The notes below the pieces were generated by a model, which made no database searches, was not told where the DNA came from, and saw only the letters and a program-made list of their open reading frames with translations. 22,214 nt of DNA from a virus: positions 1 through 22,214 of IMG/VR virus record IMGVR_UViG_3300018018_000094. One strand, 5' to 3'. Position numbers and translations under genes: made by a program. Of this stretch, positions 5,289 through 22,214 are shown piece after piece. Every line of letters starts with the position of its first letter. The stretch's first letter is position 1.

Positions 5289-5308
5289 CCTAGTGCATTA
5301 GATATACA

Positions 5309-5815
5309 TCACAGCGTCAATAAGTCATCAATATTGCTAAATACCATCGTAAGAGGCTTTTCTCGCCCAAATTCCCTGCGATACTTGAATAGACGGTAAA
5401 TTCGTGAATACTTATATGTTCCCTCGCTTCTCGGCTGGCTGTCGTGGGCTACCACATAATCCGTGCAAGAAGCCACTCTTTTTATTTCCTGTCTTCGTCT
5501 CCAGCCTGGATGGTGGTCAATCAAAGCAACGCTCCAATGAAAAGATGCATAAAGTTTTAAAAGACTAGGATCGTCCCAATTCTCCACAAAAACAACTTTG
5601 TGATAATCGCTTTCAAAAGGTTTTAGCCAATTGTAAAACGCCTTGTCACTTTCTATAGTGTAAAGTGGTCGTCTAGTCTCATAACACGCACCATGCAAGA
5701 ATGGTGTTGAAAACAAACCTCCACCAAATTCTATCACAGGACCAGTTGTTTTATTCACAACTTTAATAAGTGCTGGCAAGAGTGTTCCGTGAGGAACTGA
5801 CACTTCTATATTCAT
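5309..5815 (-). CDS. Small SAM methyltransferase-like protein, 168 aa
   Basis: Short Rossmann-like protein. VIEFGGGLFST (27-37) fits SAM motif I, YTIESD (52-57) carries the acidic residue at the end of strand 2, VALIDHHPGWRR (97-108) sits where the D-x-DH motif IV normally lies, and VVAHDSQ (121-127) corresponds to the next strand. It is shorter than the other three methyltransferases in the window and lacks their lid region. It has a clear ribosome binding site (AGAGGAAG at 5821-5828). It is separated by 1 nt from the upstream transferase-like gene. Most likely a sugar or small-molecule methyltransferase; an inactive homologue cannot be excluded. Confidence 0.75.
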   Translation of the reverse strand: MNIEVSVPHGTLLPALIKVVNKTTGPVIEFGGGLFSTPFLHGACYETRRPLYTIESDKAFYNWLKPFESDYHKVVFVENWDDPSLLKLYASFHWSVALIDHHPGWRRRQEIKRVASCTDYVVAHDSQPRSEGTYKYSRIYRLFKYRREFGREKPLTMVFSNIDDLLTL

Positions 5816-5816
5816 A

Positions 5817-6482
5817 CTAGCTTCCTCTCACATAATAATTATAAATATCTATTCCTCTACCCCAGTAAGGCAACTCATGAATCGGAGTTCTTTCTGATCG
5901 AGTATAATATCTCATCCCTTTGTGCGTCTTAATCTGGAATACAGGATTTTCTGTTTTGAAATGCTCAATCTCGTTAAACACGTCGCTTCTGTGATGTCGC
6001 TCCTTCGGAAAATTCTTCTCTGCCACATTCCACTCAGGCGCATCTTTGAATAATGTTTCCAGTCTTTCAATATAGAATTCCCTTCCGACAACTTGAGAGT
6101 GCGTAGCTCCTTCTTCCTTATGAAAGAAAAATGGTCTTCTGTCAGGCATGACATACAGATTGCTGTTTCGGTATGGAACATTGTCTCTCGGCGGAACAAA
6201 GGTAAAATAATCAGGAGGATAAAGACAGTCAGATTCGGCAGAGATGACAAATGGAGTAATTGCAGCTTTGCATCCTATCAAAACTTGGCGAAACATGTTA
6301 AATCCGCTAGTGCCGACATCTCCTACACAAATGTTCTTTCCAAAATCTATCGGCTTTTGAGAGATGGAAATTAACGGCAAATCACCCATAGCCTCCAGCA
6401 GTTTCTGTCTGATTTTCTCCTCAAACACCTCATTTTCCCGATTGGAAGTGTAATACAGGACAGTTAACAGATCTTTCAGCAT
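5817..6482 (-). CDS. Putative GT-A glycosyltransferase, YYT-x-NR family copy 2
   Basis: A 221-aa paralogue of the next two YYT-x-NR proteins. It shows LYYTSNREN (9-17), LPLISISQKPIDFG (35-48) followed by ICVGDVG, and SAESDCLYP (81-89) as a putative E-x-D metal motif. It is closest to the gene directly upstream (6476-7081), sharing the phrase YYTSNREN, the SQKPI-[DE]-FG segment and NICVG, which points to a tandem duplication. AAAGGA at 6492-6497, 9 nt before the ATG, is a good ribosome binding site. It overlaps the upstream stop by 7 nt (ATGCTGA). An overlapping minus-strand frame at 5912-6250 is a shadow of this gene. Confidence 0.75.
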   Translation of the reverse strand: MLKDLLTVLYYTSNRENEVFEEKIRQKLLEAMGDLPLISISQKPIDFGKNICVGDVGTSGFNMFRQVLIGCKAAITPFVISAESDCLYPPDYFTFVPPRDNVPYRNSNLYVMPDRRPFFFHKEEGATHSQVVGREFYIERLETLFKDAPEWNVAEKNFPKERHHRSDVFNEIEHFKTENPVFQIKTHKGMRYYTRSERTPIHELPYWGRGIDIYNYYVRGS

Positions 6483-7081
6483 AGATATTTTTCCTTTAAT
6501 TCTTTAACATTTCCCCAATGAGCCAAAACATGCGCTTTTTCACGCTCAAAGGTTGCGCCTCTAGTCATCCCATTGCCTGTCTTAAAACTGACACACGCGG
6601 TTTCTCCTCTAAAAAATTCAAATGGTTTCCAATCTACCCATAATTTTTGCTTCTCAAGATATGCTTCCAAACTCTTAACGACAAACTCCCGCTTGCAAAT
6701 CGAAGCCCCATTTGAATATGATTTCTTATAGCATAGATTGGTTTTTTTAAAGATTAACCAGACATTGTCATATCGATAAACATTTTCCGTGGTAGGATTA
6801 AACTCAAAATACTCCTTTGGATATAGAAAATCAGCTTCTGCAAAAATTAGATATTCAGTTTTGGCTTGTTTTGCTCCAATCAGTATCTGCTTGAACTCAT
6901 TTATGTAAGAATGGCCGATATTTCCTACGCAGATATTTTCCCCGAATTCAATCGGCTTCTGGGACACACTAATTATCGGCAAACTGCCGCAATTCTTAAC
7001 GATATTTCTTCGAATCTTTTCCTCAAATTCTGGATTCTCACGATTGCTGGTGTAGTATAAAATTGTTTTATTTGATTCCAT
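6476..7081 (-). CDS. Putative GT-A glycosyltransferase, YYT-x-NR family copy 3
   Basis: A 201-aa member of the three-copy family. Motifs: LYYTSNREN (8-16), LPIISVSQKPIEFG (34-47), NICVGNIG, FKQILIGAKQAKTEY (63-77) and AEADFLYP (81-88) as the likely metal-binding E-x-D. Compared with copy 1 it is shorter at the C-terminus, ending in AHWGNVKELKEKYLC. A nucleotide-sugar transferase is inferred because the order (beta strand, conserved polar loop, E-x-D near residue 83) matches the GT-A fold and all neighbours are glycan genes. It overlaps the upstream HDxDA gene by 14 nt. No Shine-Dalgarno is seen, so translation may be coupled. Confidence 0.75.
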   Translation of the reverse strand: MESNKTILYYTSNRENPEFEEKIRRNIVKNCGSLPIISVSQKPIEFGENICVGNIGHSYINEFKQILIGAKQAKTEYLIFAEADFLYPKEYFEFNPTTENVYRYDNVWLIFKKTNLCYKKSYSNGASICKREFVVKSLEAYLEKQKLWVDWKPFEFFRGETACVSFKTGNGMTRGATFEREKAHVLAHWGNVKELKEKYLC

Positions 7082-7862
7082 AATGATGAAATATCTTGAT
7101 TAACCTCTCTGACATCAAAGGCATTTTCAATCTGTTCTTCCCATACATTGCAATCGCCAAGGTATTTATCAACTCATTATGCGGATGAAAATGCAGAACC
7201 CGTATTGGCTTTAACGTATCAACATAATTAGTACGGAGATTTCTCATCCCAAAATTATATGAATAATTTATCTTCTTAATCCTGCTATTGATATTGTGAG
7301 TGTTATCATCAATTAACTGCTCCAATGCAAGCTCTTCCGAATAGCGACGATAGGCGTCTTTGTATTCTCCCACTCCAAGTTCTACTCCTTTCCATTTTTT
7401 AGCATTTTCATAAACTTTGTCTTTGATCCAATTGAATACATCCCCAGCGCTGTCTTTAAAAAAGAAGCTTCCGCAATTCAACCGCAATCCTCTGCCGTAA
7501 CTGGTAAATCCGACATCGACTCCGCCTAGCTCCTCTTTGACTTCCAATTCATCTATCTTGCTATTCTCGTAAGCGTCAAAGTCGTGCAGCCAATACACTT
7601 GTCCTTTTTCTATCATGCCACAAGCAAAAAAATGCACTAGGACGTTAATTTTGCTGACATACTTATAAAATGTGCAAAACAGCTCATCAAGAACAATCGT
7701 AGCTGTTATTCCGTTATACTTATAATCAAAATTAGTTATCAATAAAATGTCTTCTTTTTTCCAACCCAAATCAAGACTATTATCAATCTGTATTTTAACA
7801 AGAGTGGAAGTCTCTTCATCAAACTTTCTTTCTGAATTGAGATAGATTAGAAGATTTTTCAT
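7068..7862 (-). CDS. Putative GT-A glycosyltransferase, HDxDA family copy 1
   Basis: A 264-aa protein paralogous to the product of 8433-9161. Shared landmarks in order are KNL-x-YLN at the N-terminus, QIDN-x-LG, LITNFDYKYNG (41-51), YWLHDFDAYEN (90-100) with D94-x-D96, NINSRIKKINYSY, VLHFHPHN near the C-terminus, and a closing MSERLIKIFHHYGIK. The D-x-D after a hydrophobic strand and the late LHFHP histidines fit a metal-dependent GT-A transferase, but I do not recognise a named family. This copy has an extra acidic/aromatic segment (about 165-190) absent from copy 2. It is linked by a 4-nt ATGA overlap to the methyltransferase upstream. Confidence 0.75.
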   Translation of the reverse strand: MKNLLIYLNSERKFDEETSTLVKIQIDNSLDLGWKKEDILLITNFDYKYNGITATIVLDELFCTFYKYVSKINVLVHFFACGMIEKGQVYWLHDFDAYENSKIDELEVKEELGGVDVGFTSYGRGLRLNCGSFFFKDSAGDVFNWIKDKVYENAKKWKGVELGVGEYKDAYRRYSEELALEQLIDDNTHNINSRIKKINYSYNFGMRNLRTNYVDTLKPIRVLHFHPHNELINTLAIAMYGKNRLKMPLMSERLIKIFHHYGIK

Positions 7863-8461
7863 GGCTTAATAATTCCCCAGCCGTATCTAGGCAGTTCAAA
7901 GAATCTTTCTTTTAAATTATTATGCTCAACAAACTCATCCACCGCTTCAATAACTCCGTAGATAACCCCTGGCCAGTAAGTTGATATTCTATAATCATCA
8001 CCTATCAGAACTCCGCCCTTCTTGACTTTCGGATACCAATCAACAATGTCTTTCAGACACCCGTCATGAGTATGGTCGGCGTCAACATACACAAAATCAA
8101 AAAACTCATCAGCAAACTCTTTAACCACATTGAATGAATAATCTCGGTAAATCTTAACGAACGGTCTGCGAATCATTGCATTTTTAAAGTTCAAGTATTG
8201 CGCATCCAACTCAATTTGAGGAAAGCCAAAATCATTCCTAGACCTAACTCCATCATCTCTCCAGATATCTACTGCGACAGCCATCTTCGGCTTATGCGCT
8301 ATCAATTGCCTAAAATTATACCCTTTACATATCCCGATCTCAGTTATAACATCGCAGTGATATTTTCTCATGTAAGGCTTCCATATCCTGATTTTCTGCC
8401 TAATCTCCAAAGACTGTAAATCTTTGATTTGCTCATTTAATTCCATGTGAGTTGAATACAT
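7859..8461 (-). CDS. Class I SAM-dependent methyltransferase, 200 aa
   Basis: A Rossmann-fold methyltransferase with motif I EIGICKG (41-47), the ribose-binding acid in AVDIW (63-67), DFVYVDADHTHD (122-133) and GGVLIGDDY (149-157). It belongs to the same broad type as the enzyme at 4617-5288, but the sequences are far apart, so this is not a recent duplication. It sits between two paralogous transferase-like genes, overlapping the upstream one by 29 nt and the downstream one by 4 nt. Sugar O-methylation is the likely role. A second ATG at 8446 (MELNEQ) is an alternative start that would cut the overlap to 14 nt; neither has a convincing ribosome binding site. Confidence 0.85.
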   Translation of the reverse strand: MYSTHMELNEQIKDLQSLEIRQKIRIWKPYMRKYHCDVITEIGICKGYNFRQLIAHKPKMAVAVDIWRDDGVRSRNDFGFPQIELDAQYLNFKNAMIRRPFVKIYRDYSFNVVKEFADEFFDFVYVDADHTHDGCLKDIVDWYPKVKKGGVLIGDDYRISTYWPGVIYGVIEAVDEFVEHNNLKERFFELPRYGWGIIKP

Positions 8462-9161
8462 TTATCAATCTTTCTGACATAAAAGGTATTCCAATGCTAT
8501 TCTTCCCATGCATAAACTTGTCTAGCAAACCAGGCTTTGAAGGATGGAAATGTAATACTTTCAATGGCTTATGAGCTTTCCGATGGTTATGCTCAATGTG
8601 CCTCATGCCAATCTGGTAAGTGATGTTTACTTTTTTGATTCGTGAATTAACATTAAGTACATTATCTTTCTGCATATCCAGAAGCACTGTTTCATCTTCA
8701 ATGTTAAGAAAAATATGGTCTCTTAGATATTCAAAAATGTCTTTTGCGCTCGCTTTGATAAAGTCGCTTCCAAGACACCACCTGCTTCGCCAGCCATAAT
8801 CCGTAAATCCAGCATCCAGTCCGTCTAATCCCAATTCTTCTTCTGTGATGATTTCATTCTGAAAGGCATCCAAGTCGTGATTCCAATAAATCTTATCCTT
8901 CTCTATAATTCCCAATTCTATCAAGTGCGGGATTATAGAAGTCTTTATGGACCGAGGTCGAACATCGCAATAATGACCATCACCAACAACAGTAGCTCTA
9001 ACACCTTGATAATCATAAGAAAAATTAGTTACTAAAATCAGGTCATCTTTCAATCCCAAACTTATCGCATTGTCAATTTGCACTCTAGCTAAAAGCTCAC
9101 ATTCTTGATTAAACTTCTTAGCAGGATTAAGATAGACCATTAAATTCTTCACATTTGCCAT
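8433..9161 (-). CDS. Putative GT-A glycosyltransferase, HDxDA family copy 2
   Basis: A 242-aa paralogue of the 7068-7862 product. Motifs: NLMVYLNPAKKFNQE (6-20), QIDNAISLG, LVTNFSYDYQG, YWNHDLDAF (92-100) with D96-x-D98, NVNSRIKKVNITYQIG, VLHFHPSKPG and C-terminal MSERLINVFNSHGIK. The longer open frame begins at 9218, but a near-perfect Shine-Dalgarno (AAAGGAGGT at 9171-9179) lies 9 nt before the ATG at 9161, and the paralogue also starts directly at this strand, so 9161 is chosen. The remaining overlap with the upstream transferase is 13 nt. It is one of the best ribosome binding sites in the window, which suggests high expression or independent translation. Confidence 0.8.
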   Translation of the reverse strand: MANVKNLMVYLNPAKKFNQECELLARVQIDNAISLGLKDDLILVTNFSYDYQGVRATVVGDGHYCDVRPRSIKTSIIPHLIELGIIEKDKIYWNHDLDAFQNEIITEEELGLDGLDAGFTDYGWRSRWCLGSDFIKASAKDIFEYLRDHIFLNIEDETVLLDMQKDNVLNVNSRIKKVNITYQIGMRHIEHNHRKAHKPLKVLHFHPSKPGLLDKFMHGKNSIGIPFMSERLINVFNSHGIK

Positions 9162-9955
9162 TTCGTTAGAACCTCCTTTTCGTAATAATCTTTCCAAGTG
9201 GCAATCGAATAAGCCCAACCCGCTTCTTTGTTTGCTGGATTCTCCGCTGTCCCGTCATTGTGAGTTCTAGAAAAGCTCCTGTGTTTGTGAGCAAACCAAG
9301 TGTTCTTATTCAGCATCAACTTGCCCTCAGCTTGCCATGTCTTAAACTGCATCTCATGCGAATCCTGGTATAATGGACCATATCCTTCTGTCTGAAGCTC
9401 TTTAATCACCTTGTCCCACCAGCTTCTGGACATCAGCCATACGCTCCCTTGCATCGCCATTGTTTCATCTAACATAATGTCTTTGCGCTCTTCGCTTCTG
9501 CTGCTCCATTTTTGTCCAGCGAATTTTAATCTGCCTTCACCACAATCCTGTATGACCAATTTCTCATAATCAACGTAAGGAATATCCATCAGCTTCCACT
9601 GGACAGGGTCTAAGTAATATCTCCTCGCGGTCATTATCCAATCAGGTTGACAAACATCAGTCATCGCCTTGTCAAAGCCTGGAGCAAAGGCACAATGCTC
9701 GTCTGTCCGCATAATGAACTCACCTCGAGAAACATCCACTCCTGCATTTATCGCTCCTCTCATGCCTCGATTTCTGCCAAGATGGACATATCTGACTCTT
9801 GGATCATTTATTATATCAAACTCTGGCCAATAACCATCAAGCACATCGATAATTTCTAACTGATCTCCTAATTGAGAACCTTCCAAGAGAGAACCTATTG
9901 TCTTCATTGAAAGAGGATCGTGATATGATGGGATTATCACAGACAATTTAATCAT
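9149..9955 (-). CDS. GT2 family glycosyltransferase (DxHC subgroup)
   Basis: A 268-aa GT-A transferase beginning MIKLSVIIPSYHD. The motif TDEHCAFAPGFDK (84-96) holds D85-x-H87, and a later QGSVWLMSR and NTWFAHKHR correspond to the acceptor/catalytic region. It is paralogous to the genes at 10539-11402 and 2163-3119: all three have GMRG or GQRA after the first conserved region, D-x-HC-x-F-x2-GFD[KR], QGS and TW[YF]AH. It lacks the zinc ribbon of the 2163-3119 enzyme. The start at 9955 gives a 4-nt ATGA overlap with the upstream methyltransferase; the longer frame from 9988 would add 11 residues unlike the paralogues. Confidence 0.85.
   Translation of the reverse strand: MIKLSVIIPSYHDPLSMKTIGSLLEGSQLGDQLEIIDVLDGYWPEFDIINDPRVRYVHLGRNRGMRGAINAGVDVSRGEFIMRTDEHCAFAPGFDKAMTDVCQPDWIMTARRYYLDPVQWKLMDIPYVDYEKLVIQDCGEGRLKFAGQKWSSRSEERKDIMLDETMAMQGSVWLMSRSWWDKVIKELQTEGYGPLYQDSHEMQFKTWQAEGKLMLNKNTWFAHKHRSFSRTHNDGTAENPANKEAGWAYSIATWKDYYEKEVLTKWQM
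9171..9178 (-). promoter_or_regulatory. Strong Shine-Dalgarno deciding the 9161 start
   Basis: On the minus strand this reads AGGAGG within AAAAGGAGGT, about 10 nt before ATG 9161 and inside the coding end of the upstream transferase. It supports 9161 over the upstream ATG at 9218 and supports a bacterial host. Confidence 0.8.
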
Positions 9956-10551
9956 TTGTTTTTTACGATAATTAGTTTTTCCTTCCATCTTTCACGAGGA
10001 AGAGGAGGAAGTTCGCATTCATACCCAGCTAAGCCTGCAAGAACGACATCAGGATGAAAAACATCTTCTATAATATAAATCACATCTTTTTTGAGCATCG
10101 GCAGAATCATTCTTGCCAGGTTGATTTGATAGTTTGTTTTGTGACAACCATCGTCAATAAACAAGTCAATATCAGAACCCGTCTGTTTAATCAGCCATCT
10201 TAGATGTTTTTCTTTCCTTTCGTCGCACACAAAAGTCTTTATGCGCTCACCTTCATACATGGCATCCTGCTCGCAGTCCGCCCCGTAAACTTGTGCATTC
10301 GGAAAGAAGTCTCTCCACATTCTCAAACTTGGTGCTTTCTGATAATATCTTTTGAGTCTCTTGTCATAAATCTGGTCTTCATACTTCATAGTCTTCCAAT
10401 AGCCGATTCCCATCTCCAAAACTTTTTTGATTGTTTCTCTTCTGTCTTTTAACAGCTCATAATAAAATGGCGTATAAAAATGTTTAAGCTGTGGACACTT
10501 GTCTGTCCCATACTTGTATGCTATTTCACAAAGTGGCGTTAGATCTTCCAT
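9952..10551 (-). CDS. SAM-dependent methyltransferase of the KYGTDK type
   Basis: A 199-aa protein with an N-terminal KYGTDK (13-18) and following H-x-YTP-x-YYELL, a signature of sugar O-methyltransferases acting in macrolide and polysaccharide pathways. SAM motif I is VLEMGIGYW (44-52), VYGADCEQD (88-96) holds the ribose-binding acid, DLFIDDGCHKTN (129-140) matches the metal/catalytic D-D-x-x-H region, and YIIED follows at 159-163. It differs from the other methyltransferases in the window, so at least three subfamilies are present, as expected if different hydroxyls or sugars are methylated. It is overlapped by 13 nt by the upstream GT2 and by 4 nt by the downstream GT2. Confidence 0.82.
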   Translation of the reverse strand: MEDLTPLCEIAYKYGTDKCPQLKHFYTPFYYELLKDRRETIKKVLEMGIGYWKTMKYEDQIYDKRLKRYYQKAPSLRMWRDFFPNAQVYGADCEQDAMYEGERIKTFVCDERKEKHLRWLIKQTGSDIDLFIDDGCHKTNYQINLARMILPMLKKDVIYIIEDVFHPDVVLAGLAGYECELPPLPRERWKEKLIIVKNK

Positions 10552-11402
10552 AAGCTCCTATCCTCTGGCCATCCTGGCACAGGCCAAAACTTTTCTATCA
10601 GCCAATGAAACTTGTGCACCATATTCGGCTCTTCGTTATTCATCCAATGTTTAGCTGACCAAGTGTTATTTCTTTCGGCATGATTATCTTTCTTAAGTCT
10701 TTTCTCAATCACATTTCCTCTCTGATAATAAATCTTGGTCTTCTTGAAATGGGCATACCAAGTCCTTTTGTCTACTTTAACCTCGCCTCCACCTAACCAG
10801 TATTTCAAACAGATCTCTACTGGCTCTTGAGCAAATATCCCGTAAGTCTCCCGTCTGTCATCCAAAAATCCAACACGCTCCATAAAATACTTACGATTCG
10901 CAAACCAGCAACTTCCCTGAAGCACCATCGTGTCATCTATCTCGCTTCCTTCTTTTCCTTCCCACTCCGCTGGAAAAATTCCTGTTCCATAATTGCTTGA
11001 CTGTGGAAATGAAAGATAAAGATAATCTCTGATAGGACGTGCTTCATTTCTTTTCCAATTTTCAACATCCAATGAATATCGCCTAGGAGTCATTAGCCAG
11101 TTCTCTTTGCAATCTTCTGAAAGTATCTTGTCAAATCCTTGCCCAAATATGCAATGGTCATCGCATTTCATCACAAACTTACCAGTAGCTATCTTCAATC
11201 CTTCGTTAATACCGCCTCTCATTCCTCTAGGTTTGTCTGGAAAAATATATCTTACTCTTTTGTCTTCTACCAATTTATCAGGCTTCTTGCCATCCACATG
11301 GACGATTATTTCAATGTCAGTTTCAGATTTCGCCAAAATATCCTCTATCGTCTTTGTCAAATAAACACAATTCAGATTAGGGATTATTACGGATAAGTTC
11401 AT
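10539..11402 (-). CDS. GT2 family glycosyltransferase (DxHC subgroup)
   Basis: A 287-aa GT-A enzyme starting MNLSVIIPNLN. The metal motif is D81-D82-H83 in KCDDHCIFGQGFDK, with GMRGG (60-64) before it. Later landmarks are LQGSCWF, an acidic QEPVEICLKYWLGGG segment and TWYAH, and the C-terminal LIEKFWPVPGW is nearly the same as in the 2163-3119 enzyme. Two consecutive ATGs occur (11405 and 11402); GAGG lies 3 nt before the first and 6 nt before the second, so 11402 is preferred. The start overlaps the end of the dehydrogenase gene by 26 nt. The substrate is unknown; a GT27-like relation is weaker here than in its paralogue. Confidence 0.87.
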   Translation of the reverse strand: MNLSVIIPNLNCVYLTKTIEDILAKSETDIEIIVHVDGKKPDKLVEDKRVRYIFPDKPRGMRGGINEGLKIATGKFVMKCDDHCIFGQGFDKILSEDCKENWLMTPRRYSLDVENWKRNEARPIRDYLYLSFPQSSNYGTGIFPAEWEGKEGSEIDDTMVLQGSCWFANRKYFMERVGFLDDRRETYGIFAQEPVEICLKYWLGGGEVKVDKRTWYAHFKKTKIYYQRGNVIEKRLKKDNHAERNNTWSAKHWMNNEEPNMVHKFHWLIEKFWPVPGWPEDRSLWKI

Positions 11403-12129
11403 CATTCACCTCTAAGAGCTTATTTGTTAACTGCGGATTATAACCAACTGATTCTGCCCACGCTGCCCAGCCGTAAACATCCTTCGGAATACATTTAGAG
11501 TTGAAGCCTCGCTTGTCTGGAAAGATGAAAGTATGCCAGAGATTGAACCTTGTATCATCTCCATAAACCGCATCTCTGATAGTATAATAGTCTACTCCAG
11601 CTTTCTCGCATGCATCGTACAGCTCCTGGCACTGTGCTATCTTGAAAGCAATAGCCCGGTTCTCACTCAACTTAATCACTTCCGCTTCATAGTTGGTCAC
11701 TTGCCTTATCGTGATGTTCGCATGATAAGCTGTCTGGTAAAGTTCTATAGCCTTTCGTCTGTTCTCTGGCCTGCCACCAAATATCAAAAATTGCCTCGCT
11801 TTTTGGTCAGTCATCGGGTGGTTCACAGTCTCGCCTAGATATTCTGGCTGGAACACTACATTCTTTCCGAGCTTCTCTAGCTTGTCGCAAGTCCCAGGCA
11901 TTACAGTGGATCTGATAATAATCAAAGGGCTATCACATTTCTTAACAACATCTTCAACTATAGAGCAATCCAACTTATTGTCTTTCAGTGGTGTCGGCAC
12001 ACATATAAATGAAATATCCACGAACTCCTCGCTTACATAATTTTGCGCAGGGTCGTGGATAAGAGAGTCAGGAAACAAAGTCTGCATTGCTTTGCCTACC
12101 CAGCCTAACCCATAGATTTTTGTAGTCAT
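11377..12129 (-). CDS. UDP-glucose/GDP-mannose dehydrogenase-like, short form
   Basis: A 250-aa homologue of nucleotide-sugar 6-dehydrogenases, which oxidise UDP-glucose to UDP-glucuronate (or GDP-mannose or UDP-HexNAc to the acids) with two NAD+. Motifs: glycine loop GLGWVG (7-12), FICVPTP (41-47), STVMPGT (74-80), QPEYLGE (94-100), EAEVIKLSEN (148-157) and the catalytic cysteine C213 in GFNSKCIPKD. The N-terminal Rossmann domain is compact, and the protein ends soon after the central helix, so the C-terminal UDP-sugar-binding domain of the usual 390-450-aa enzymes is missing. It begins 3 nt after the portal stop and opens the second glycan block. Activity with the missing domain is uncertain. 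Confidence 0.88.
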   Translation of the reverse strand: MTTKIYGLGWVGKAMQTLFPDSLIHDPAQNYVSEEFVDISFICVPTPLKDNKLDCSIVEDVVKKCDSPLIIIRSTVMPGTCDKLEKLGKNVVFQPEYLGETVNHPMTDQKARQFLIFGGRPENRRKAIELYQTAYHANITIRQVTNYEAEVIKLSENRAIAFKIAQCQELYDACEKAGVDYYTIRDAVYGDDTRFNLWHTFIFPDKRGFNSKCIPKDVYGWAAWAESVGYNPQLTNKLLEVNDELIRNNP

Positions 12130-12132
12130 AAC

Positions 12133-14334
12133 CTATTTGAATAAACTCTTCAAAAATAATCTAAGTGATTTAATTGAAAATGCTTCACTTGAAATACTGG
12201 ATTCAAACAATGTCTTGAGCTGTGATATAGTTTCTAAAGCCTTTGGGATAGCATCTTTATGATCTTCCCAACGCTTGACATCTCCTTGAAACTGATAATC
12301 AATTCCGTAACCACGCTTGTCATGACCGATGATATACTGATTAGATCGTCTGTCTCCTAAAACCATGTCTCGCTCTGCTTTCCACAAATTAGCCAAGTCT
12401 TGTATCGCTGCAGAATAACTATCAGGATCTCGTTTCATGTCAGCAAGTAAAAGATGATTGGTTAAATCATAACCATCGACATATTTTGAAACTAAATAAT
12501 AAGGAAACAATCTCGAACCTCCGTTCTTAACTCGCCACTTTTCAGAATCGTATTCTGGTGTCATTGCACAATACATCTCAAACTGAGCTAATACTTCTGG
12601 ATTAGAGCGTAACATATTGACCACTTCAACATACGTCATCTTACTTATGGGATTCACATTCAATCCCATACTTGCCAACTCTTGTGTCAATTTTATTTCC
12701 AAGCTCTGTGATTGCAGATTGACAGCCACAGGCGTTTTGATGACATAGCCAAGACCACTTTTAATATCCATAAAGATAAACGGCTGCGAGAAACCTCTGT
12801 CGTCTGCCCATACTTTATAGCCATTCTGTGTAAAGACTGCTTTCTGTAAAGATTTAGTGACTTCTTCTCCTTTTACACTTTTCTGCTCCTTGTAAGGTTT
12901 TTCACCACCAATTTCTTTAGGTTGTCCTTCTTCAGTTGGCTCTGAAGCCATCAAGCCTGTATAACCATTAGCGGTCAAAATCATCGGCTCGTCTGCCCAC
13001 TCACCATAAGGAGTTTCACCCATTTGTTGTCTGACTTCATTTAGTGTCAATGTGCCGTTTCTTAAAGCTCTATCATAGATAGTTGAAGCTTTATCAGGCT
13101 CAATGTTGTCTTTACCGATAAAAGCAAACTCTAAATCATCATAACCAAAATCTTTCCAGATAATTTCCTGATTGAATACTTGTGTAAACAAATCCAAGAT
13201 TGAACCATATCCTTTGCTCTCTGATAAGTCTTTCTGCACTTCAGATACGCTCTTGCTTCCTGTCGTGTCTGTAATGCCAATGTCTTCAGGCGACATTTCA
13301 AATCCAGCACAGCACATCTTACCGAGCCATAAAGTATACTCCATGAACTGCATATCACGATTATTCAGATCTTTGAGATTGATAATTTCAGATTTCTGTT
13401 TTGAAGCAAGTATTGCTGGACGATGGAATCTGCCTTCAATTTCTTGATAGAAGTATTCTTTCCAAGCCTCTAAATCACGCTGATTGATTTCTCCAATTAG
13501 GTTCAGAATAATCGGAGGAAAAGCTCCTTCTTCAAAATAAGCTCCATTAAAATTGTCTGAATTAAGTAAGTTTGCAACAACAGAAATAATACCTTCAAGA
13601 GGAGACAGCCCATAACCGAAGCCTTCTAACGATCCTTGCGGATGCATGTGAAAATGGATAAAATCCTTCTTCGGCCATGCAGCCACTATATCACCACTTT
13701 CAGGACCGCCATACTGCGAGTTGTTAAATATCTGAAGATATGATACAGGCAATTCACTCTCTTCGCCTTTAGTTGGCAGCGGAATAACTATATCTTGATT
13801 TCCGTACTGGTCGTAAACTGGGCGGATTGTCGCACTATCAACAAAATGCAATTCAGCAAGTTTGCCATCAGGATAACGAGTTTTTTCTATTGAAATAGCA
13901 TCTAAAACAAGAAGATCTTCAACCATCTTATCAAGCAATGTTCTGAATGTCTCATCGTTTTGATTTGGATGTTTTAAGAAATCTGTTATCTCTTTTATGC
14001 GTTTGTCTGAATTTATTGCATTTTTGCGTTTAACTTGGTCTGTCGGCTGAATAATCCACTGAGTTTTAGTAACTTTAGATTTTAGGCAGTTAATACAAAT
14101 CCTAGCCACATATACTGATAATGCAACTCTACGTAATGTATCATAAGCAATTCGTCCAGGTTTGGTAAGTCCTTTACGAATCGCCATTGCGTTGCGCTGT
14201 TTTTCATTTTCAAAAACAAGACCTCTCTGCCTATCAGGATCCTTCAATCCTTTCTGAATCCTATAAAAATCTATATCTTGCATACCTTTCGGAATCAAAA
14301 TAGACTTCGTCAACGTAGTTTCTTCTTCAGGCAT
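12133..14334 (-). CDS. Phage portal protein with C-terminal kinase-fold-like domain
   Basis: A 733-aa protein. Residues about 60-460 form an HK97/SPP1-type portal, the dodecameric ring at the capsid vertex through which DNA passes: FIHFHMHPQGSLEGFGYG (225-242), SPLEGIISVVANLL, the FEEGAFPPIILNL strand (268-280) and the long stem helices near 370-395 are typical. Residues about 460-500 are a charged linker. Residues 505-700 resemble a protein-kinase-like fold: VIKTP (531-535, Lys533), a Glu-rich helix (E546/E552), hinge YYLVSKYVDG (612-621), LGDRRSNQYI with D661 and N665, and GIDYQF with D679. Portals are usually 400-550 aa, so the extension is additional. The kinase-like reading comes from motif order and is not proven. 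No Shine-Dalgarno is seen; 31 nt separate it from the HTH gene. Confidence 0.9.
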   Translation of the reverse strand: MPEEETTLTKSILIPKGMQDIDFYRIQKGLKDPDRQRGLVFENEKQRNAMAIRKGLTKPGRIAYDTLRRVALSVYVARICINCLKSKVTKTQWIIQPTDQVKRKNAINSDKRIKEITDFLKHPNQNDETFRTLLDKMVEDLLVLDAISIEKTRYPDGKLAELHFVDSATIRPVYDQYGNQDIVIPLPTKGEESELPVSYLQIFNNSQYGGPESGDIVAAWPKKDFIHFHMHPQGSLEGFGYGLSPLEGIISVVANLLNSDNFNGAYFEEGAFPPIILNLIGEINQRDLEAWKEYFYQEIEGRFHRPAILASKQKSEIINLKDLNNRDMQFMEYTLWLGKMCCAGFEMSPEDIGITDTTGSKSVSEVQKDLSESKGYGSILDLFTQVFNQEIIWKDFGYDDLEFAFIGKDNIEPDKASTIYDRALRNGTLTLNEVRQQMGETPYGEWADEPMILTANGYTGLMASEPTEEGQPKEIGGEKPYKEQKSVKGEEVTKSLQKAVFTQNGYKVWADDRGFSQPFIFMDIKSGLGYVIKTPVAVNLQSQSLEIKLTQELASMGLNVNPISKMTYVEVVNMLRSNPEVLAQFEMYCAMTPEYDSEKWRVKNGGSRLFPYYLVSKYVDGYDLTNHLLLADMKRDPDSYSAAIQDLANLWKAERDMVLGDRRSNQYIIGHDKRGYGIDYQFQGDVKRWEDHKDAIPKALETISQLKTLFESSISSEAFSIKSLRLFLKSLFK

Positions 14335-15889: not shown

Positions 15890-16690
15890 TCATGCAGTAT
15901 CATTTTGTAGTTTCTTATCTTGCTTAATTATGTCATCCAAATTGGGATCATTGATAGAAAACGGCTGTCCCTTGCTATCAATGTAAATTCCTCCACCTTT
16001 TTGCGCTTCACGAGCTCTTGTAATTTTATCTACCTCTTCTCGCAAGTATTCAGCTTCATCAAGATTATTAATAGCCAACTGGATAAACAGCATATCCCAG
16101 ACCAACCTTTTTACTCCTTCTTGGGTCTCGCAAAAATCTATGTAAGTATATCCTTTCGCTTTGTTATTAGGCAGTTGCAGCCATTTCCGAAATCTTTCCT
16201 TTTCTTCTTCTACATTAACTTTACATATCTTACCAATAACTTCTGCTTGTTTCCTCAGATATTCTATGAACATATTCACAAACATCTCAAAGTCAAACCG
16301 CATCCGAGTCTGAAATACTCTGCTCTCTTTCGTATGATGACCTTTGTAACGAAACAACTCCGCTAAGAAAGAAGCGCTCTCTTTGCCTCTTTCAAACAAA
16401 TACATAGACAACACATTGTCCTTCTGGTCTTGATTCAACTTAGGATCAGCTAATGCCACAATGAGCTTCTGTTCATGCGTTCCTGTTCTGTCAAGTTTGA
16501 CAATCTTCTTATGACCTGTAAATGGATCTTTAACTTCCACTTTCTGGACAGGCGGCAAATTATACTTGTCTAACGTGAGTTTTGTCTTTTCTACCGATTC
16601 CTTCGGGGTCAATGTATTTGAGTCCAGGATCGTAAGTCCACTTGCCAATGAATCTTTTTCTATCGGCTTCAAAGTCTTCTTCTTTTTCAT
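15890..16690 (-). CDS. Hypothetical protein, 266 aa
   Basis: Not recognised. The Lys-rich N-terminus (MKKKKTLKPIEKD) is followed by a low-complexity segment and then, from about residue 75, a mostly helical domain (HEQKLIVALADPKLNQDQKD, then FDFEMFVNMFIEYLRKQAEVI) and a charged C-terminus. No membrane segment is seen. The start at 16690 is chosen because GGAG lies 5 nt before it; an ATG at 16711 has none. This start makes the gene overlap the upstream transferase-like gene out of phase by 131 nt, much more than any other junction here. The next in-frame Met would remove about 95 residues. A scaffold, adaptor or packaging-accessory role would fit the position but is not supported by motifs. 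Confidence 0.72.
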   Translation of the reverse strand: MKKKKTLKPIEKDSLASGLTILDSNTLTPKESVEKTKLTLDKYNLPPVQKVEVKDPFTGHKKIVKLDRTGTHEQKLIVALADPKLNQDQKDNVLSMYLFERGKESASFLAELFRYKGHHTKESRVFQTRMRFDFEMFVNMFIEYLRKQAEVIGKICKVNVEEEKERFRKWLQLPNNKAKGYTYIDFCETQEGVKRLVWDMLFIQLAINNLDEAEYLREEVDKITRAREAQKGGGIYIDSKGQPFSINDPNLDDIIKQDKKLQNDTA

Positions 16691-17456
16691 AATCGCTCCA
16701 AGGAAAATCAAATGGAAAGATAGGGATTCGTTGCGAAGTTATAGCTTCAAAACTTTTCTGTTTAATCTGCTGCCACAAATCAGCTTGTAAGAATACATGC
16801 GTATGATATTCTGGATCAAGAGTAATCATCTCAGCCACATAACGAGGCATTGCTGTTAGATTAAATTGCAGATCCCTTTCTTCTACTGGCATTGAATTGT
16901 TATACTTGTCAAAGTTTTCAGGCTCGATTATCGACCTTAAATCATAGCCAGAAATTACTTTTGCATCATCTGATCTATTCGCTCTATCTATCAAAACATC
17001 TATAGCACCTTCCTGTATCATTATCCAGGGATTGAAAACCATAATGAATTGAGAATCAGTTTCATCTAGAGCCACTCGTAGTCCTTCTATTAAATACTCA
17101 TTATAAGTTGCCTTTCTCCCAACTGGGATGTTCAAAACATTGCCGCGTTTTGTCCAGCCAATTAAGATGTTTGTAACAGATGTCGGATCTGCTAAGTCAT
17201 TTGACAAAGATTCTGGATGCGCAACAAAAATAACATACAAAGAATGTATGTTAGAATATAACCTGCTTAATGCAAGTCTCAACACCTCTCCATTAACCGG
17301 ATTCTTCGGTATGTCTGCCCAATATCCGAACAACGGAACGACGACTGTCACTTTTGTTTTAGCAGTGACACCAATGAATTCTTTCAAAGTCTTATCTAAA
17401 GGCTTTTCTTTTAAACTTTGAGATTTCTTTTTTCTGTCATAAATTCCTCTAGGCAT
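16560..17456 (-). CDS. GT-A-like protein with degenerate metal motif
   Basis: A 298-aa protein with a basic N-terminal extension (1-33, many Lys/Arg) followed by VTVVVPLFGYW (36-46), as at the start of GT2 enzymes. SQFIMVFNPWI (135-145) occupies the place where GT2 proteins carry their D-x-D strand end, but the acidic pair is replaced by N-P. LIDRANRSDDAKVISGYDLRS then follows as in GT-A folds. HVFLQADLWQQI and a Trp/Asp-rich C-terminus complete a transferase-sized domain. It may be an inactive or divergent transferase, or a sugar-binding subunit. The C-terminal 43 codons overlap the next gene in another frame. The upstream GT2 ends 14 nt before it. Confidence 0.72.
   Translation of the reverse strand: MPRGIYDRKKKSQSLKEKPLDKTLKEFIGVTAKTKVTVVVPLFGYWADIPKNPVNGEVLRLALSRLYSNIHSLYVIFVAHPESLSNDLADPTSVTNILIGWTKRGNVLNIPVGRKATYNEYLIEGLRVALDETDSQFIMVFNPWIMIQEGAIDVLIDRANRSDDAKVISGYDLRSIIEPENFDKYNNSMPVEERDLQFNLTAMPRYVAEMITLDPEYHTHVFLQADLWQQIKQKSFEAITSQRIPIFPFDFPWSDYEKEEDFEADRKRFIGKWTYDPGLKYIDPEGIGRKDKTHVRQV
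16696..16699 (-). promoter_or_regulatory. GGAG ribosome binding site deciding the 16690 start
   Basis: On the minus strand the sequence is TTGGAGCGATTATG, with GGAG 5 nt before ATG 16690, inside the coding end of the upstream gene. It supports genuine translation from within the long overlap. Confidence 0.6.
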
Positions 17457-17470
17457 ATATTTTTTGTTAA

Positions 17471-18292
17471 TTACGCACTTGGATTTTGTAATGTGCTCTT
17501 TATAGATTTCTTTTCATCATTGTAAGGATGCTGAAACTTTTCTTCTGTCGGCACTCCTCCCCATTTCTCAATGAAAGCCGCTCTATTCTTTTCAAACATC
17601 TCAGATGTAACTATTCGCCTGCCTCTCTCGCTTCCCACATTCTGAGTCATGCTCCCATAATGATAAAACATCGCTGTCGGCAAAAGAATAGCCAGAAGTC
17701 CAGCAAGCTGCATCCGATAATGATAATCATTGTCTTCAAAATAAGCAGGAGCGAACAACTCATCAAATTCTCCCACAATTTCCCAACAAGGTTTGTTTAT
17801 CATAATCATTGAAAAACAAGGATGCTCCGTTTCTTCCACGCTCTCTTTGTCCTTGGCGTTCAATGTGCTGATTAGAGATGGAATCAGATTGGCTGCTTTC
17901 ATTTCTCCATCAACAGGCATTCCTGTAACCATAGCCACATCACCTTTGTCAAATCTCTCAACGAGTCTCCAAATCGCTTCAGGATGCATGACTATGTCAT
18001 TATTGCAGACTAACCCAAAATCCATTTTATTCTCCCAAGCATACATCATTCCGAAGTTTACAGACCTTTGAAATCCCCATCTGTCACTATTCTTGTGATA
18101 ATGAAATAATTCGCTTTCTAATTTCGAAGCTTCCCTGCTAGTTTCGTCTGTGGAATTGTTATCAATCAAAAGAATATGAGAATCGATATTATGCACTTTC
18201 GCACGTATCATAGCTTCAAAGATAGAATCCAAGCAAGGACTTGTATATTTCTGCCAGAGATTGATAACTGGAACTATGATTTCAACTTTCAT
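17471..18292 (-). CDS. GT2 family glycosyltransferase
   Basis: A canonical 273-aa GT2 enzyme. VEIIVPVIN opens the Rossmann-like half, IDNNSTDE (43-50) binds the nucleotide, RWGFQRSVNFG (71-81) is the usual N-x-G region, LVCNNDI with N98-D99 is the D-x-D equivalent, and PAYFEDNDY (182-190) holds the E186-D187 pair of the acceptor/catalytic base site followed by HYRM. The pattern is rhamnosyl- or hexosyltransferase-like, but the sugar cannot be read. No membrane segment is present, so it acts in the cytoplasm on a soluble or peripheral acceptor. The start overlaps the zinc-ribbon gene stop by 4 nt. Confidence 0.92.
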   Translation of the reverse strand: MKVEIIVPVINLWQKYTSPCLDSIFEAMIRAKVHNIDSHILLIDNNSTDETSREASKLESELFHYHKNSDRWGFQRSVNFGMMYAWENKMDFGLVCNNDIVMHPEAIWRLVERFDKGDVAMVTGMPVDGEMKAANLIPSLISTLNAKDKESVEETEHPCFSMIMINKPCWEIVGEFDELFAPAYFEDNDYHYRMQLAGLLAILLPTAMFYHYGSMTQNVGSERGRRIVTSEMFEKNRAAFIEKWGGVPTEEKFQHPYNDEKKSIKSTLQNPSA

Positions 18293-18444
18293 AAATAATT
18301 GACTTTAAGTAAAGAAGTGAAATGCCACTTATAGCATTTGTCACAAAGATACACTCTCATTCGCTTGCCGTTTCTTAACAAACTGCGCATAGCGTGATGT
18401 GCCGCTTTCTTAGTCCCGAATCCTTGCTTGGTGCATACAATCAT
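18289..18444 (-). CDS. Small zinc-ribbon protein, 51 aa
   Basis: A short gene read directly from the minus strand: ATG at 18444-18442, stop TGA at 18291-18289. It has C4, then an Ala/His/Arg helix (TKKAAHHAMRSLLRNGKR), then RVYLCDKCYKWHFTS with C34-x2-C37 and H41. This layout, one cysteine near the N-terminus, a basic helix, and Y-x-C-x2-C-x3-WH-x-TS, is common in very small phage proteins of unknown function that probably bind one zinc ion. It fills the space between two GT2 genes exactly, with 4 nt upstream and a 4-nt ATGA overlap downstream, which supports real translation. Nucleic-acid binding is a guess. Confidence 0.82.
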   Translation of the reverse strand: MIVCTKQGFGTKKAAHHAMRSLLRNGKRMRVYLCDKCYKWHFTSLLKVNYL

Positions 18445-18448
18445 AAAA

Positions 18449-19069
18449 TCAATAGCCTGTTATATGTTGAGCCAAATCTTCTTTCGTGACTCCAATAAAA
18501 TATCCTGCTTCTCTCATACGCAAAACATAATCGACATCTTCGCCGTTTCCTCCCTTAGTTAAGCAAGTTCCACGCTCATCAAACATTCCAACTTCCTGCA
18601 TTGCCGCCTTCGGAAGCATCCAGCCAACTCCTGGAACTTGATCCATTTCTCTGAACCATTCATCCATAATTCCACCTTTAAGAAAGCCATGAGCAGTATG
18701 ACGCCAAACGCCAAGTATGCCGATGTTGGGATGATGCTCGAATGTCTCAAACATCTTCTTGTGAAAGTCTTTGCTGTATTCTACATCATTGTCGGATATA
18801 AAAAGAAATGGAGCGCGAGACAGACCTAAAGCGTTATTCGTTGCATAGCTCCAACCTCTGTTCTCGGGAAGCAAGACGAGAAATGCGCGATACAGACATT
18901 TCATATCATCTAAGAATTCCCTAACTCCCTTTTCAGTCGAGCCGTTGTCTACGACAATGAATCGCTCGCATGCTTCCAATGCTCCAGAAGTGACCAATGA
19001 TGCCACTGTGCGTTTAAGATAGTCTAAACGATTCCAAGACCTTAAGATGATGTCAAACTTGTTTTCCAT
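18449..19069 (-). CDS. GT2 family glycosyltransferase, short
   Basis: A 206-aa GT2 protein. FIVVDNGST (37-45) binds the nucleotide, LLPENRGWSYATNNAL is the conserved N-R-G region, FISDNDVEY with D93-x-D95 is the metal motif, and GGNGEDVDYVLR (173-184) gives the E177-D178 acceptor-site pair. It is close to the minimum length of a complete catalytic domain and has no C-terminal extension. GGGA lies about 6 nt before the ATG. The start overlaps the end of the RGP-like gene by 17 nt. The sugar and acceptor are not predictable. Confidence 0.92.
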   Translation of the reverse strand: MENKFDIILRSWNRLDYLKRTVASLVTSGALEACERFIVVDNGSTEKGVREFLDDMKCLYRAFLVLLPENRGWSYATNNALGLSRAPFLFISDNDVEYSKDFHKKMFETFEHHPNIGILGVWRHTAHGFLKGGIMDEWFREMDQVPGVGWMLPKAAMQEVGMFDERGTCLTKGGNGEDVDYVLRMREAGYFIGVTKEDLAQHITGY

Positions 19070-20048
19070 ATTTGTCCCAAACCTTCACCCACCATTCCAT
19101 AGCGGGAATCATATTTTTAAACTGCGGACTTTTGCTAGATAAATTCTTAAAACATTCAACAAAAACTTTAAAAGACTTGTCGTATTGTTTATTTTTTATT
19201 TCATCATTTCTCAAAAATATCGCCATATCAACTCTTTCAATAAAACTTTCTTCCCATTTATACATAGCCTCTTCCGCTGCTGTGTCTGCTGCGATATCAA
19301 TCGTTGTGTCGTGATAAGTAATCGGCTGTCCATAACTCATTCCTTCATGCCTCTTGCGCATCAAGCGCTGGAAGATATATCCTCCCCAAATATCATCAAT
19401 CCTGCGAAACTTATCATCACCATACTCAAAATTCGGAATAAAGAAGAATCCTGGAACTGCTTCTCTCAACATGGCAAAGTTACCGCCAGAAAAAGGAATT
19501 GGCGCAAGGGCAGGATGTGAACTAGCATCCAAGACTTCAGTCGGTTCAGTCTTACTCCTGTCTTTGCCGTTAATATCCAAGACATTATTCCAAAGTCCCA
19601 TATTGGCAACAATCTTCCAATTGCGCATAAAATATGGATAGCCGCGAGAATAATAGCCAGTTCCTCTAAGAGGATTTTCCCAACCACCTGTTATTTTGCA
19701 TCCAAGATATTTCAGATGTTCCGCTACAAAACCTGACTGCACGATGCAATCGCTGTCCAATCCGATAATAACATCATAGCCTTCGCTATAAGCTAAAATA
19801 TGACCAAACACACGACAAGCAGCTTGATGGTGAAAGAACTTAGCAAACTCATCATAAAGATCTCCCAAGAATACTGCTTGGTCAAAGTAGTTATATCTCC
19901 GCCATTCAGCAGGCAAACTTTCTAATTCACCATCGCTATCATCCACAATAATCACATCAGCATTTCCAGCGACAGCTTCTCTCTGCAAAGAAGTTATCCA
20001 TTCTTCTGTCAGTTTAATGTGGCAAGGAATTACGATTGCGATTTTCAT
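19053..20048 (-). CDS. Reversibly glycosylated polypeptide / UDP-arabinopyranose mutase-like protein (GT75-like)
   Basis: A 331-aa GT-A protein whose motifs match plant RGP/UAM proteins: IIVDDSD (33-39), IIGLDSDC with D98-x-D100, SRGYPYFMR (134-142), NMGLWNNVLDIN (149-160), PIPFSGGNFAM (183-193) and DDIWGGYIF (218-226). In plant enzymes, which interconvert UDP-arabinopyranose and UDP-arabinofuranose while becoming self-glycosylated on arginine, the RGYPFSLR segment holds two arginines seven residues apart; here R135 and R142 keep that spacing. The C-terminus (about 265-331) is helical and diverges. Start 20048 gives a 4-nt ATGA overlap; the frame from 20057 adds three residues. It could be a mutase or a related transferase; the exact UDP-sugar is inferred. 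Confidence 0.82.
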   Translation of the reverse strand: MKIAIVIPCHIKLTEEWITSLQREAVAGNADVIIVDDSDGELESLPAEWRRYNYFDQAVFLGDLYDEFAKFFHHQAACRVFGHILAYSEGYDVIIGLDSDCIVQSGFVAEHLKYLGCKITGGWENPLRGTGYYSRGYPYFMRNWKIVANMGLWNNVLDINGKDRSKTEPTEVLDASSHPALAPIPFSGGNFAMLREAVPGFFFIPNFEYGDDKFRRIDDIWGGYIFQRLMRKRHEGMSYGQPITYHDTTIDIAADTAAEEAMYKWEESFIERVDMAIFLRNDEIKNKQYDKSFKVFVECFKNLSSKSPQFKNMIPAMEWWVKVWDKYGKQV

Positions 20049-20884
20049 ACTTTGCAAGGAATTAATTTTTTAACATCTCTATACTCCGTAAGCCACTGTC
20101 TTTCAGCTTCTAAGTAAACAGTTTTGTCCCAAGTTTCTATCATCGAAAGATTATGTGCTTCACACCACTCTTTCCCATAATCAGGATTTGCTCCGACTGT
20201 CTGTCCGCTGATATGGTCGCAAGCAATTCCTAAAACTCCAATTTCATATCCTATTTCTCTCGTCTCACAAGACAGCAATCTATCATAGAAATGATGAGGC
20301 GGGAAATTCTCTCTCTGTTTAATCTTTTCCAAAACCTCTTTTCTGAATATCATAGCACATCCATCCACAACCGCAGCCTGTGAATACCCATCACTGCACC
20401 TGCCGTGCATTCCAGCTGGACTGCCTTTCCAAACTGTCTTTGTCCCATCTGCATTCTGCCTCATGCTTTCATTGCCTTGAAAGTTTGACGTAGTGCCATG
20501 ACCGCGACCACCATCATTATCAATCTCGTTTGAACCTACAAAACCAAGCAAGCCAAGTTTAGGTCTTTTTGCAAACTCCTCCAGAACTCTCTTGCCCCAA
20601 TTAGGTTCAGCAAGTATCAAATCACTGTGGAAGAATGCCAAGATGTCTGCGTCAGTATGCTTCAGTGCTTCCCAGAAAATTGGATAAACTCCGATGTTCT
20701 TTTTTAGGTAAACACAATGGATAGATTCTCTCTTAAAGGGTTTAGCAGAGCCATTGTCTATCGCTATAATTTCAGTTGTCCAGTTTTTGTTTTCATACGG
20801 CACTAAATAAGCGGACATCAAATCAATCGCTGTATCAGCTAAGTCAAATTCATTCAAGACTGGCACGACAATTGCGAGTTTCAT
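20045..20884 (-). CDS. GT2-like glycosyltransferase
   Basis: A 279-aa GT-A enzyme. LAIVVPVLNEFD (3-14) is the first strand, IIAIDNGS (39-46) the nucleotide site, KKNIGVYPIFWEAL the usual K-N-x-G region, and AFFHSDL with H86-x-D88 stands at the D-x-D position. The middle (about 120-165) is Gly/Asn/Ser-rich, with GGRGHGTTSNF and SPAGMHGRCSDGYSQ forming a long loop not typical of minimal GT2 proteins. VVDGCAMIFRKEVL (172-185) and FYDRLLSCETREIGYEIG follow as in acceptor-site regions. Several conserved-looking His/Cys residues could bind metal. It is the first glycan gene after the immunity-like gene, 6 nt downstream. Confidence 0.86.
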   Translation of the reverse strand: MKLAIVVPVLNEFDLADTAIDLMSAYLVPYENKNWTTEIIAIDNGSAKPFKRESIHCVYLKKNIGVYPIFWEALKHTDADILAFFHSDLILAEPNWGKRVLEEFAKRPKLGLLGFVGSNEIDNDGGRGHGTTSNFQGNESMRQNADGTKTVWKGSPAGMHGRCSDGYSQAAVVDGCAMIFRKEVLEKIKQRENFPPHHFYDRLLSCETREIGYEIGVLGIACDHISGQTVGANPDYGKEWCEAHNLSMIETWDKTVYLEAERQWLTEYRDVKKLIPCKV

Positions 20885-21077: not shown

Positions 21078-22214
21078 TTAATGTTTATTACTGAAGACTC
21101 CGACCATCCTATCGTAATTGCTTCTCTGCTTTTCTTGTTCCTTAATCATTGTGATGTCTGCTTCTCTTTCAAACACGACCCGTTGCTCTGCTTTCTGTAA
21201 AGGAGGGGAATCTTTGATTGTCATAAGTGATGAAACAGGAAATAAAATCTTGCTACCCAATAGTTCTCTCACTTCGCTATAAGCAAACCACAGGGCCATC
21301 AAACTGTCTCCAGTGTGTCCATCTGGAAATGCTCGCATTTCATTAACCAGTTGTGCAGCTAACATGCTTGTCCTCGCATCTGTAAAATCAGACGGAATAA
21401 CAAGTTTCCCCAGCTCCATCATTACGGCTAAAGAATTAATCCCTATTTCCGGGTCGAATTTTTCTTTGCCGGTATTGTAAGACCTGACAGAAATACCTTC
21501 GTTTGCTAAATCCATTGTCAATGCCGCTTGATAACCGACGCTCTCTACTCTAATTGTCTGTATGTTGTGGTCTACCCATGCAGTTTTGACAACTTTGCGC
21601 TGCTCGTTGGGAGTAAACTTCCCTCTGTGTATTTGCCTGACGATGTAATCACCATCTTCAATTCCCTCATAACCATGACGCACAAGATCTAAATAAACTA
21701 AAGCGGTATCATCTGAAAATTCTTGCAAACTGATAGCTAAATCCATTCCTGCCGCGCTGACTTCAAGATAATTGTTAGCGTGTGGTTGATCTTGAAATCT
21801 CAAATGTTTTCCTTTTTTTAGTGCTTTTTCGATCCATTCATCTTTGATTGTCTGGTTTGGCCTGTCTGATGGGTTGCACTGGTACATTCTTGCAAAAACA
21901 TAAGGGTTGATTAATCGCTCAAGATAAAGGCGTGAATATGGATAGCGTTCAGGCCACAAAACGTGAGCTCCACTGTCCATGTCTTGCTTGTTAAGAATGT
22001 AAAATGAGTTTGCTTGCTCAAACCGTTCTTTGGGCTGGACGGAAATGTTCATCATTATGCTTCCCCATTTCTGCCACAAATCTTGATTTTCTGCTTCCTT
22101 GACAATTGCACCTCTTTTTTTTGCAACAACGAAACGAGGGTCATTTAAAAATCTAGCAACAATATCATCTTGGTGCCACGAATTTCCCAAGTAGATCAAA
22201 GTTCCGCCAGGAAC
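21078..22214 (-). CDS. terL: Terminase large subunit, C-terminal part (N-terminus outside window)
   Basis: The frame is open to the right edge (378 codons in window). The nearest apparent start at 22199 is only an internal TTG, because VPGGT precedes it in frame. Numbered from the edge, residues 1-20 (GGTLIYLGNSWHQDD) match the end of the ATPase domain. The RNase H-like nuclease domain follows, with acidic residues D158 in AAGMDLAIS, E224 in TIRVESVGYQA and D303 in GHTGDSLMALWFAYSE, the three expected metal ligands. The protein cuts and pumps DNA into proheads through the portal. The Walker A and B motifs lie outside. The C-terminal tail (about 340-378) is charged and helical. It is followed 10 nt later by the immunity-like gene, with no portal directly after it as is usual. 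Confidence 0.93.
   Translation of the reverse strand, partial: VPGGTLIYLGNSWHQDDIVARFLNDPRFVVAKKRGAIVKEAENQDLWQKWGSIMMNISVQPKERFEQANSFYILNKQDMDSGAHVLWPERYPYSRLYLERLINPYVFARMYQCNPSDRPNQTIKDEWIEKALKKGKHLRFQDQPHANNYLEVSAAGMDLAISLQEFSDDTALVYLDLVRHGYEGIEDGDYIVRQIHRGKFTPNEQRKVVKTAWVDHNIQTIRVESVGYQAALTMDLANEGISVRSYNTGKEKFDPEIGINSLAVMMELGKLVIPSDFTDARTSMLAAQLVNEMRAFPDGHTGDSLMALWFAYSEVRELLGSKILFPVSSLMTIKDSPPLQKAEQRVVFEREADITMIKEQEKQRSNYDRMVGVFSNKH

Follow-up and report, generated by a model that had tools for sequence, protein, structure and literature searches.

A portal protein of uncultured bacterial viruses with a C-terminal domain of predicted kinase fold

Portal rings are usually regarded as passive gates for DNA. 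The 733 aa ORF at 12133..14334 (minus strand) of IMG/VR record IMGVR_UViG_3300018018_000094, which we analysed as a window of 22,214 nucleotides (positions 1 to 22,214 of the record), raises the question of whether this portal also carries an enzyme and, if so, what that enzyme would do. The original prediction, made from the sequence alone, was that the portal ends in a kinase-like domain. All of the motifs quoted for it lie at the residues given, i.e., VIKTP with K533, a helix bearing E546 and E552, YYLVSKYVDG at residues 613–622, LGDRRSNQYI with D661 and N665, and GIDYQF with D679.

The 733 aa protein is an HK97-type portal by all tests, as had been supposed. Residues 77–438 (13021..14106, minus strand) match the Phage_portal family PF04860 in hmmscan with 94.2 bits against a cut-off of 39.1 (E 1.1e-26), the ORF matches phrog_12 (E 3e-40), and residues 71–478 of a full-length model align with solved portals, with Z scores of 18.1–18.5 for phage 812 and 15.5 for HK97. 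The rmsd to these solved portals is high, which is expected since the full-length model is a single chain of low confidence (pTM 0.41) in which subdomains may be misplaced. Residues 463–497 (12844..12948, minus strand) are read as a flexible linker because their pLDDT in this model is below 50 and they are poorly conserved; mean pairwise identity is 0.29 across residues 455–500, compared with 0.55 for the portal body and 0.54 for the kinase-like domain. The latter spans residues ~504–715 (12190..12825, minus strand), as delimited by an AlphaFold2 model, fold matches in the PDB, and a 29-member family. Many related portals end in a small conserved domain of ~80 residues (PVMFGxLV...YGGIxxxxDxxGxxYxxYxK) for which we found no family match; it was seen in nine portals that carry the kinase-like domain (L016, L018–L021, L023, L025, L028, and L062) and in six that do not (L072, L082–L085, and L092).

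To describe the fold, the C-terminal 245 residues were modelled by AlphaFold2 from a 19-sequence alignment (pLDDT 87.4, pTM 0.82), and residues ~504–715 are predicted with high confidence to adopt a bilobal protein-kinase fold. The predicted elements follow the canonical order beta1-beta2-beta3-C-beta4-(insert)-beta5-hinge-D-E-loop-beta7-beta8. The N-lobe consists of strands at 506–510, 519–523, and 529–533, a helix at 540–555 containing E546, and a strand at 564–567, after which a helical insert peculiar to this family separates beta4 from beta5 (residues 568–604; 12523..12633, minus strand) and contains the invariant Y595, S597, and W600. Strand 612–617 then leads into the hinge, with YYLVSKYVDG (12469..12498, minus strand) holding invariant Y613 and G621, and helices 627–635 and 637–657 precede the LGDRRxxQ loop, strands 667–670 and 675–677, and finally D679. 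In this order K533 closes beta3, E546 lies within helix C, the loop that follows helix E carries D661, and D679 comes after beta8. The stretch following D679 is short in the model, so the lobe that usually binds protein substrates would be reduced.

At E<=1e-3 Foldseek retrieved 394 PDB chains, of which the best 50 are protein kinases or PI3Ks, one of them (7cz2) bearing only a locus-tag title; HipA and APH do not appear among those best 50. By VIA-align, the best match is actin-fragmin kinase (1cja; Z 11.1, 201 aligned residues, 4.4 A, 12% identity), followed by human PRPK/Bud32 (7szc; Z 10.8, 171 aligned residues, 4.5 A, 10% identity), the pre-40S chain 6zxd_z (Z 9.7), which we take to be RIOK1, and Fes, PI3Ks, and AceK at about 9. 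Matches of PI3K/PI4K type (Z about 8.5–9.3) score slightly below actin-fragmin kinase and Bud32. The kinase-like fold was borne out by the model, but the further suggestion that the domain is closest to PI3K-like or APH kinases proved too specific, since actin-fragmin kinase and Bud32 score best and no sequence profile assigns the domain. A search of viral structure models (BFVD) also retrieved a 1201 aa portal of an uncultured phage, A0A6J5S481 (E 1.1e-4, 12% identity), which may represent a second, divergent portal-kinase family; related fusions may thus already sit unnoticed in UniProt.

By sequence, the domain is a member of no named kinase family, and it is called kinase-like on its predicted fold and four catalytic residues. 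Profiles from Pfam, PHROG, NCBIfam, and PADLOC and an HMM search of the PDB gave no assignment, and among 19 members none matched the Pfam models Pkinase, APH, PI3_PI4_kinase, RIO1, or HipA at E<=1, a result with which a remote relationship to any of these may still be compatible. Kinase-PolyVal (PF18762) likewise gave no match in the 19 members, and searching 21 entire records at E<=1 did not bring one up either. A weak sequence signal to Bud32, independent of the fold, was found in four members (best E 0.0012); for the Bud32 model NF011463, L018 reached 17.0 bits (E 0.003) against a curated cut-off of 188 bits. Sequence matches to PDB entry 4mnd (E 0.16–0.9) and to DpdH, DUF3801, and TraI were dropped as weak and inconsistent among members. 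One contig from the first scan, L003, was removed because its unrelated ORF, which by eye we presume to be thymidylate-synthase-like, shares ADMKRDPD by chance.

Conservation was scored over residues 505–700 in the 29 contigs with the fusion, the window included. Only 30 of the 196 positions do not vary, and these include all four of K533, E546, D661, and D679 (crude chance 5e-4), which is more than expected by chance. K533 (12736..12738, minus strand) occupies the position of the ATP-binding Lys, E546 (12697..12699, minus strand) that of the helix C Glu, D661 (12352..12354, minus strand) that of the catalytic-loop Asp, with R662 and R663 also invariant and Gly at residue 660 in all 29, and D679 (12298..12300, minus strand) that of the DFG Asp, with Q681 and F682 likewise invariant. 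Further hallmarks of the family are D512, G514, P518-F519, Y595, S597, W600, R608, G660-D-R-R, and D679-x-Q-F. A divergent member, L089 (5824-7986), has SDMG in place of DDRG and retains the four catalytic residues. In the one pair for which dN/dS was measurable it was low (0.046), other pairwise values being mostly saturated.

Conservation thus agrees with the prediction at K533, D661, and D679, and only in part elsewhere. The proposed Glu-bearing helix holds for E546; E552 is variable, which leaves E546 as the helix C Glu. N665, which had been read as the catalytic-loop Asn, was the only one of the four positions expected to be conserved that is not: it lies at D+4, where 18 sequences have Asp and 11 have Asn. 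The metal-binding position of kinases, D+5, is Q666 (12337..12339, minus strand), and there we found no Asn, only Gln in 28 of 29 and His in one. Alpha-kinases also have Gln at D+5; Asn at this position is not universal in the superfamily, so Q666 limits the claim to a classical kinase rather than the claim to the fold. A Gly-rich GxGxxG loop between beta1 and beta2 is absent from the 29 sequences as well, the region reading DDRGxxQPF with G514 as its sole invariant Gly; PI3Ks also lack GxGxxG. The domain resembles PI3K/PI4K in having a GDR catalytic loop followed by a metal-binding Asp, but differs in that it reads GDRRxxQ where PI3Ks have GDRHxxN. Actin-fragmin kinase and Bud32 are both minimal or atypical kinases, as the portal domain appears to be, but sequence-level membership is missing at the low identities given above, and the context differs.

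Where does the domain occur, and is it part of every such portal? When IMG/VR was scanned with the domain or the portal, 28 contigs besides the window proved to carry the fusion. A standalone form did not turn up in the domain-level scans, the last of which added no new contig; these scans rely on short peptide patterns, so very divergent versions would be missed. Bacterial and archaeal genomes (pattern search and tblastn), phage records, and plasmids yielded no relative of the domain, and neither a partner immunity gene nor a substrate was found for it. A scan with the portal body, in contrast, retrieved the six close relatives lacking the domain, in which the linker directly joins the small C-terminal domain (..PVMFG..YGG..). 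In the portal-body tree these domain-less portals form a clade nested among carriers (branch support 96/94), so that two changes are needed, consistent with a single gain and a single loss. No second copy of the domain was found elsewhere in the domain-less records by whole-record searches (up to 62 kb, some of the records being short fragments).

A pair of carriers, L078 and L081, suggests that the domain also moves between portals. Their portal bodies are divergent (dS about 1.3), and DNA identity begins at the very codon that opens the first strand of the domain, from which the two are near-identical for ~5 kb onward (7285-9507 and beyond in L078, same coordinates in L081). The two viruses appear to have recently exchanged DNA at the boundary of the domain, though one of the assemblies could instead be chimeric. 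Judged from these sequence comparisons, the kinase-like domain is an accessory cassette subject to modular loss and exchange.

The domain is also linked to MuF proteins. In the deepest branch, a single ORF of 968–1223 residues in L029, L030, L044, and L047 encodes the portal, the kinase-like domain, and a Mu gpF-like region, with DUF5661 also lying between these domains in L029 and L030. In L048, on the same branch, a MuF gene follows next after the portal-kinase ORF (PF04233, E 1e-8). Downstream of the MuF region in L029 lie ORFs that we presume to be protease and capsid genes. MuF is not adjacent in the clade of the window itself, several carriers of which have a MuF-like ORF thousands of bases away. 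The MuF proteins of SPP1 attach to the portal on the inside of the head (PMC5576092).

That the fusion is without precedent holds in part. In the open literature that we searched, no portal is described as having a protein-kinase fold. Fusions of portals or MuF proteins to enzymes of other folds are known, and two sources propose that those to ART, Nudix, 2H, and RNase domains are packaged and injected effectors (PMC9503650, PMC5512222). MuF fusions there include a zeta-toxin-like kinase, and PBECR RNase is among the fused effectors (Iyer et al. 2017 PMC5512222; Viruses 2022 PMC9503650). The portal-kinase proteins resemble these in placing an enzyme domain on a head protein of the portal vertex, with MuF adjacent or fused in some members, and differ from them in fold. 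Kinase-PolyVal (PF18762), from phage polyvalent proteins, is described in PMC5512222 as kinase-like, proposed to be phage-delivered, and having a lost or reduced C-lobe. The portal domain is likewise a protein-kinase-like phage domain with a reduced C-lobe; however, according to the same source, Kinase-PolyVal has a catalytic His plus an insert ahead of the Asp, and its last N-lobe strand holds a conserved Gln, whereas the portal domain has Gly-Asp-Arg-Arg, lacks the His, and does not match PF18762. In 'Gratiaviridae' a HipA-like kinase gene lies between the portal and MCP genes (PMC8008677), which similarly places a kinase in a phage head module, but as a separate gene that HHpred identifies as HipA, while the portal domain is fused and was not assigned to HipA. 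The zeta-toxin kinase mentioned above has the fold of P-loop kinases, which is unrelated to that of protein kinases.

Our preferred reading, to which we give roughly even chances, is that the domain is an atypical phosphotransferase borne on the portal as an accessory effector in the head and that it modifies host proteins on infection. The invariance of the catalytic residues points to activity, and the domain is probably competent for phosphotransfer; in that case ATP would be positioned by K533 and E546, the base in catalysis would be D661, and the metal would be held by D679 together with Q666. It would be tethered by the flexible linker at the portal C-terminus, toward the capsid interior. 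In known portals the C-terminal crown lies inside the capsid, and with a placement borrowed from these about 12 copies of the domain would sit inside the head. From there the domain would ride along and act on host proteins after delivery. Because sister portals work without the domain and the cassette is mobile, an accessory effector is more likely than a component required for portal construction. That the domain is dispensable, is apparently exchanged at its boundary, and is linked to MuF together suggests the cargo role, and analogy to the other portal and MuF fusions suggests the host target; these two are the weakest steps. More tentatively, and at short of even chances, the domain may be an undescribed atypical-kinase family that is exclusively portal-tethered, forming a ring of kinases on the DNA gate that acts on the host at infection.

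An active kinase could instead serve the assembly of the virus, phosphorylating the scaffold, portal, MuF, or capsid in the procapsid and, e.g., timing maturation or packaging. Its conserved catalytic residues, its place on a head protein that presumably faces the procapsid interior, and the head genes downstream in L029 would suit such a role, which we nevertheless hold to be unlikely, though worth serious thought, since sister portals that share the body and the C-terminal domain do without it, their records hold no second copy, and it has apparently been exchanged between viruses with divergent portals. We also regard it as distinctly unlikely that the domain is a pseudokinase, acting as a portal tether or plug that binds either a nucleotide or another protein without phosphotransfer. 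The missing Gly-rich loop and the replacement of Asn by Q666 would agree with this, and the invariant Y595, W600, R608, and D512/G514 could make a binding surface, but it would be unusual for a pseudokinase to keep all four core catalytic residues unchanged in 29 sequences when five sixths of the positions vary.

Some kinase folds are known to perform other chemistry, e.g., SidJ, and the reduced C-lobe is more like that of small kinases than of full protein kinases. An enzyme that transfers AMP or phosphorylates a sugar or nucleotide, e.g., disarming a host defence signal, is nonetheless improbable here, given that protein kinases are the best fold matches, although nothing speaks specifically against it. 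That the domain has no relationship to kinases, its motifs having arisen by chance in a portal extension, would accord with the lack of significant profile matches, but this is scarcely credible in the face of the confident fold prediction, the kinases at the top of the matches, and the invariant catalytic residues.

If the preferred reading of a portal-borne effector is right, these proteins add a new example of enzymes on virus head proteins in a group of uncultured bacterial viruses, and a kinase-fold domain gained and lost on the portal would add protein phosphorylation to the activities of such proteins. The portal-tethered domain would offer a direct test system for a role in assembly against action on the host. 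Atypical kinases, too, gain a family, one that has Gln at its metal site and that databases do not currently model.

Two features of the surrounding window are of note. At its left end, positions 1-1725 (minus strand) encode a protein without a Pfam match whose C-terminal part is a long low-complexity SPS repeat (SPSxSPSxSP...), the ORF being truncated by the contig end. The C-terminal part of the terminase large subunit lies at 21078..22199 (minus strand; phrog_38, E 5.5e-27), and sugar-related genes crowd both flanks of the portal gene, at 2163-12129 and 16560-20884 (minus strand), including the gap between terminase and portal; they encode GT2-family glycosyltransferases, an RGP-like protein, Methyltransf_24-type methyltransferases, an RmlD-like epimerase, and a UDP-glucose dehydrogenase-like protein. 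The stretch of sugar genes between terminase and portal is an unusual interruption of the packaging module.
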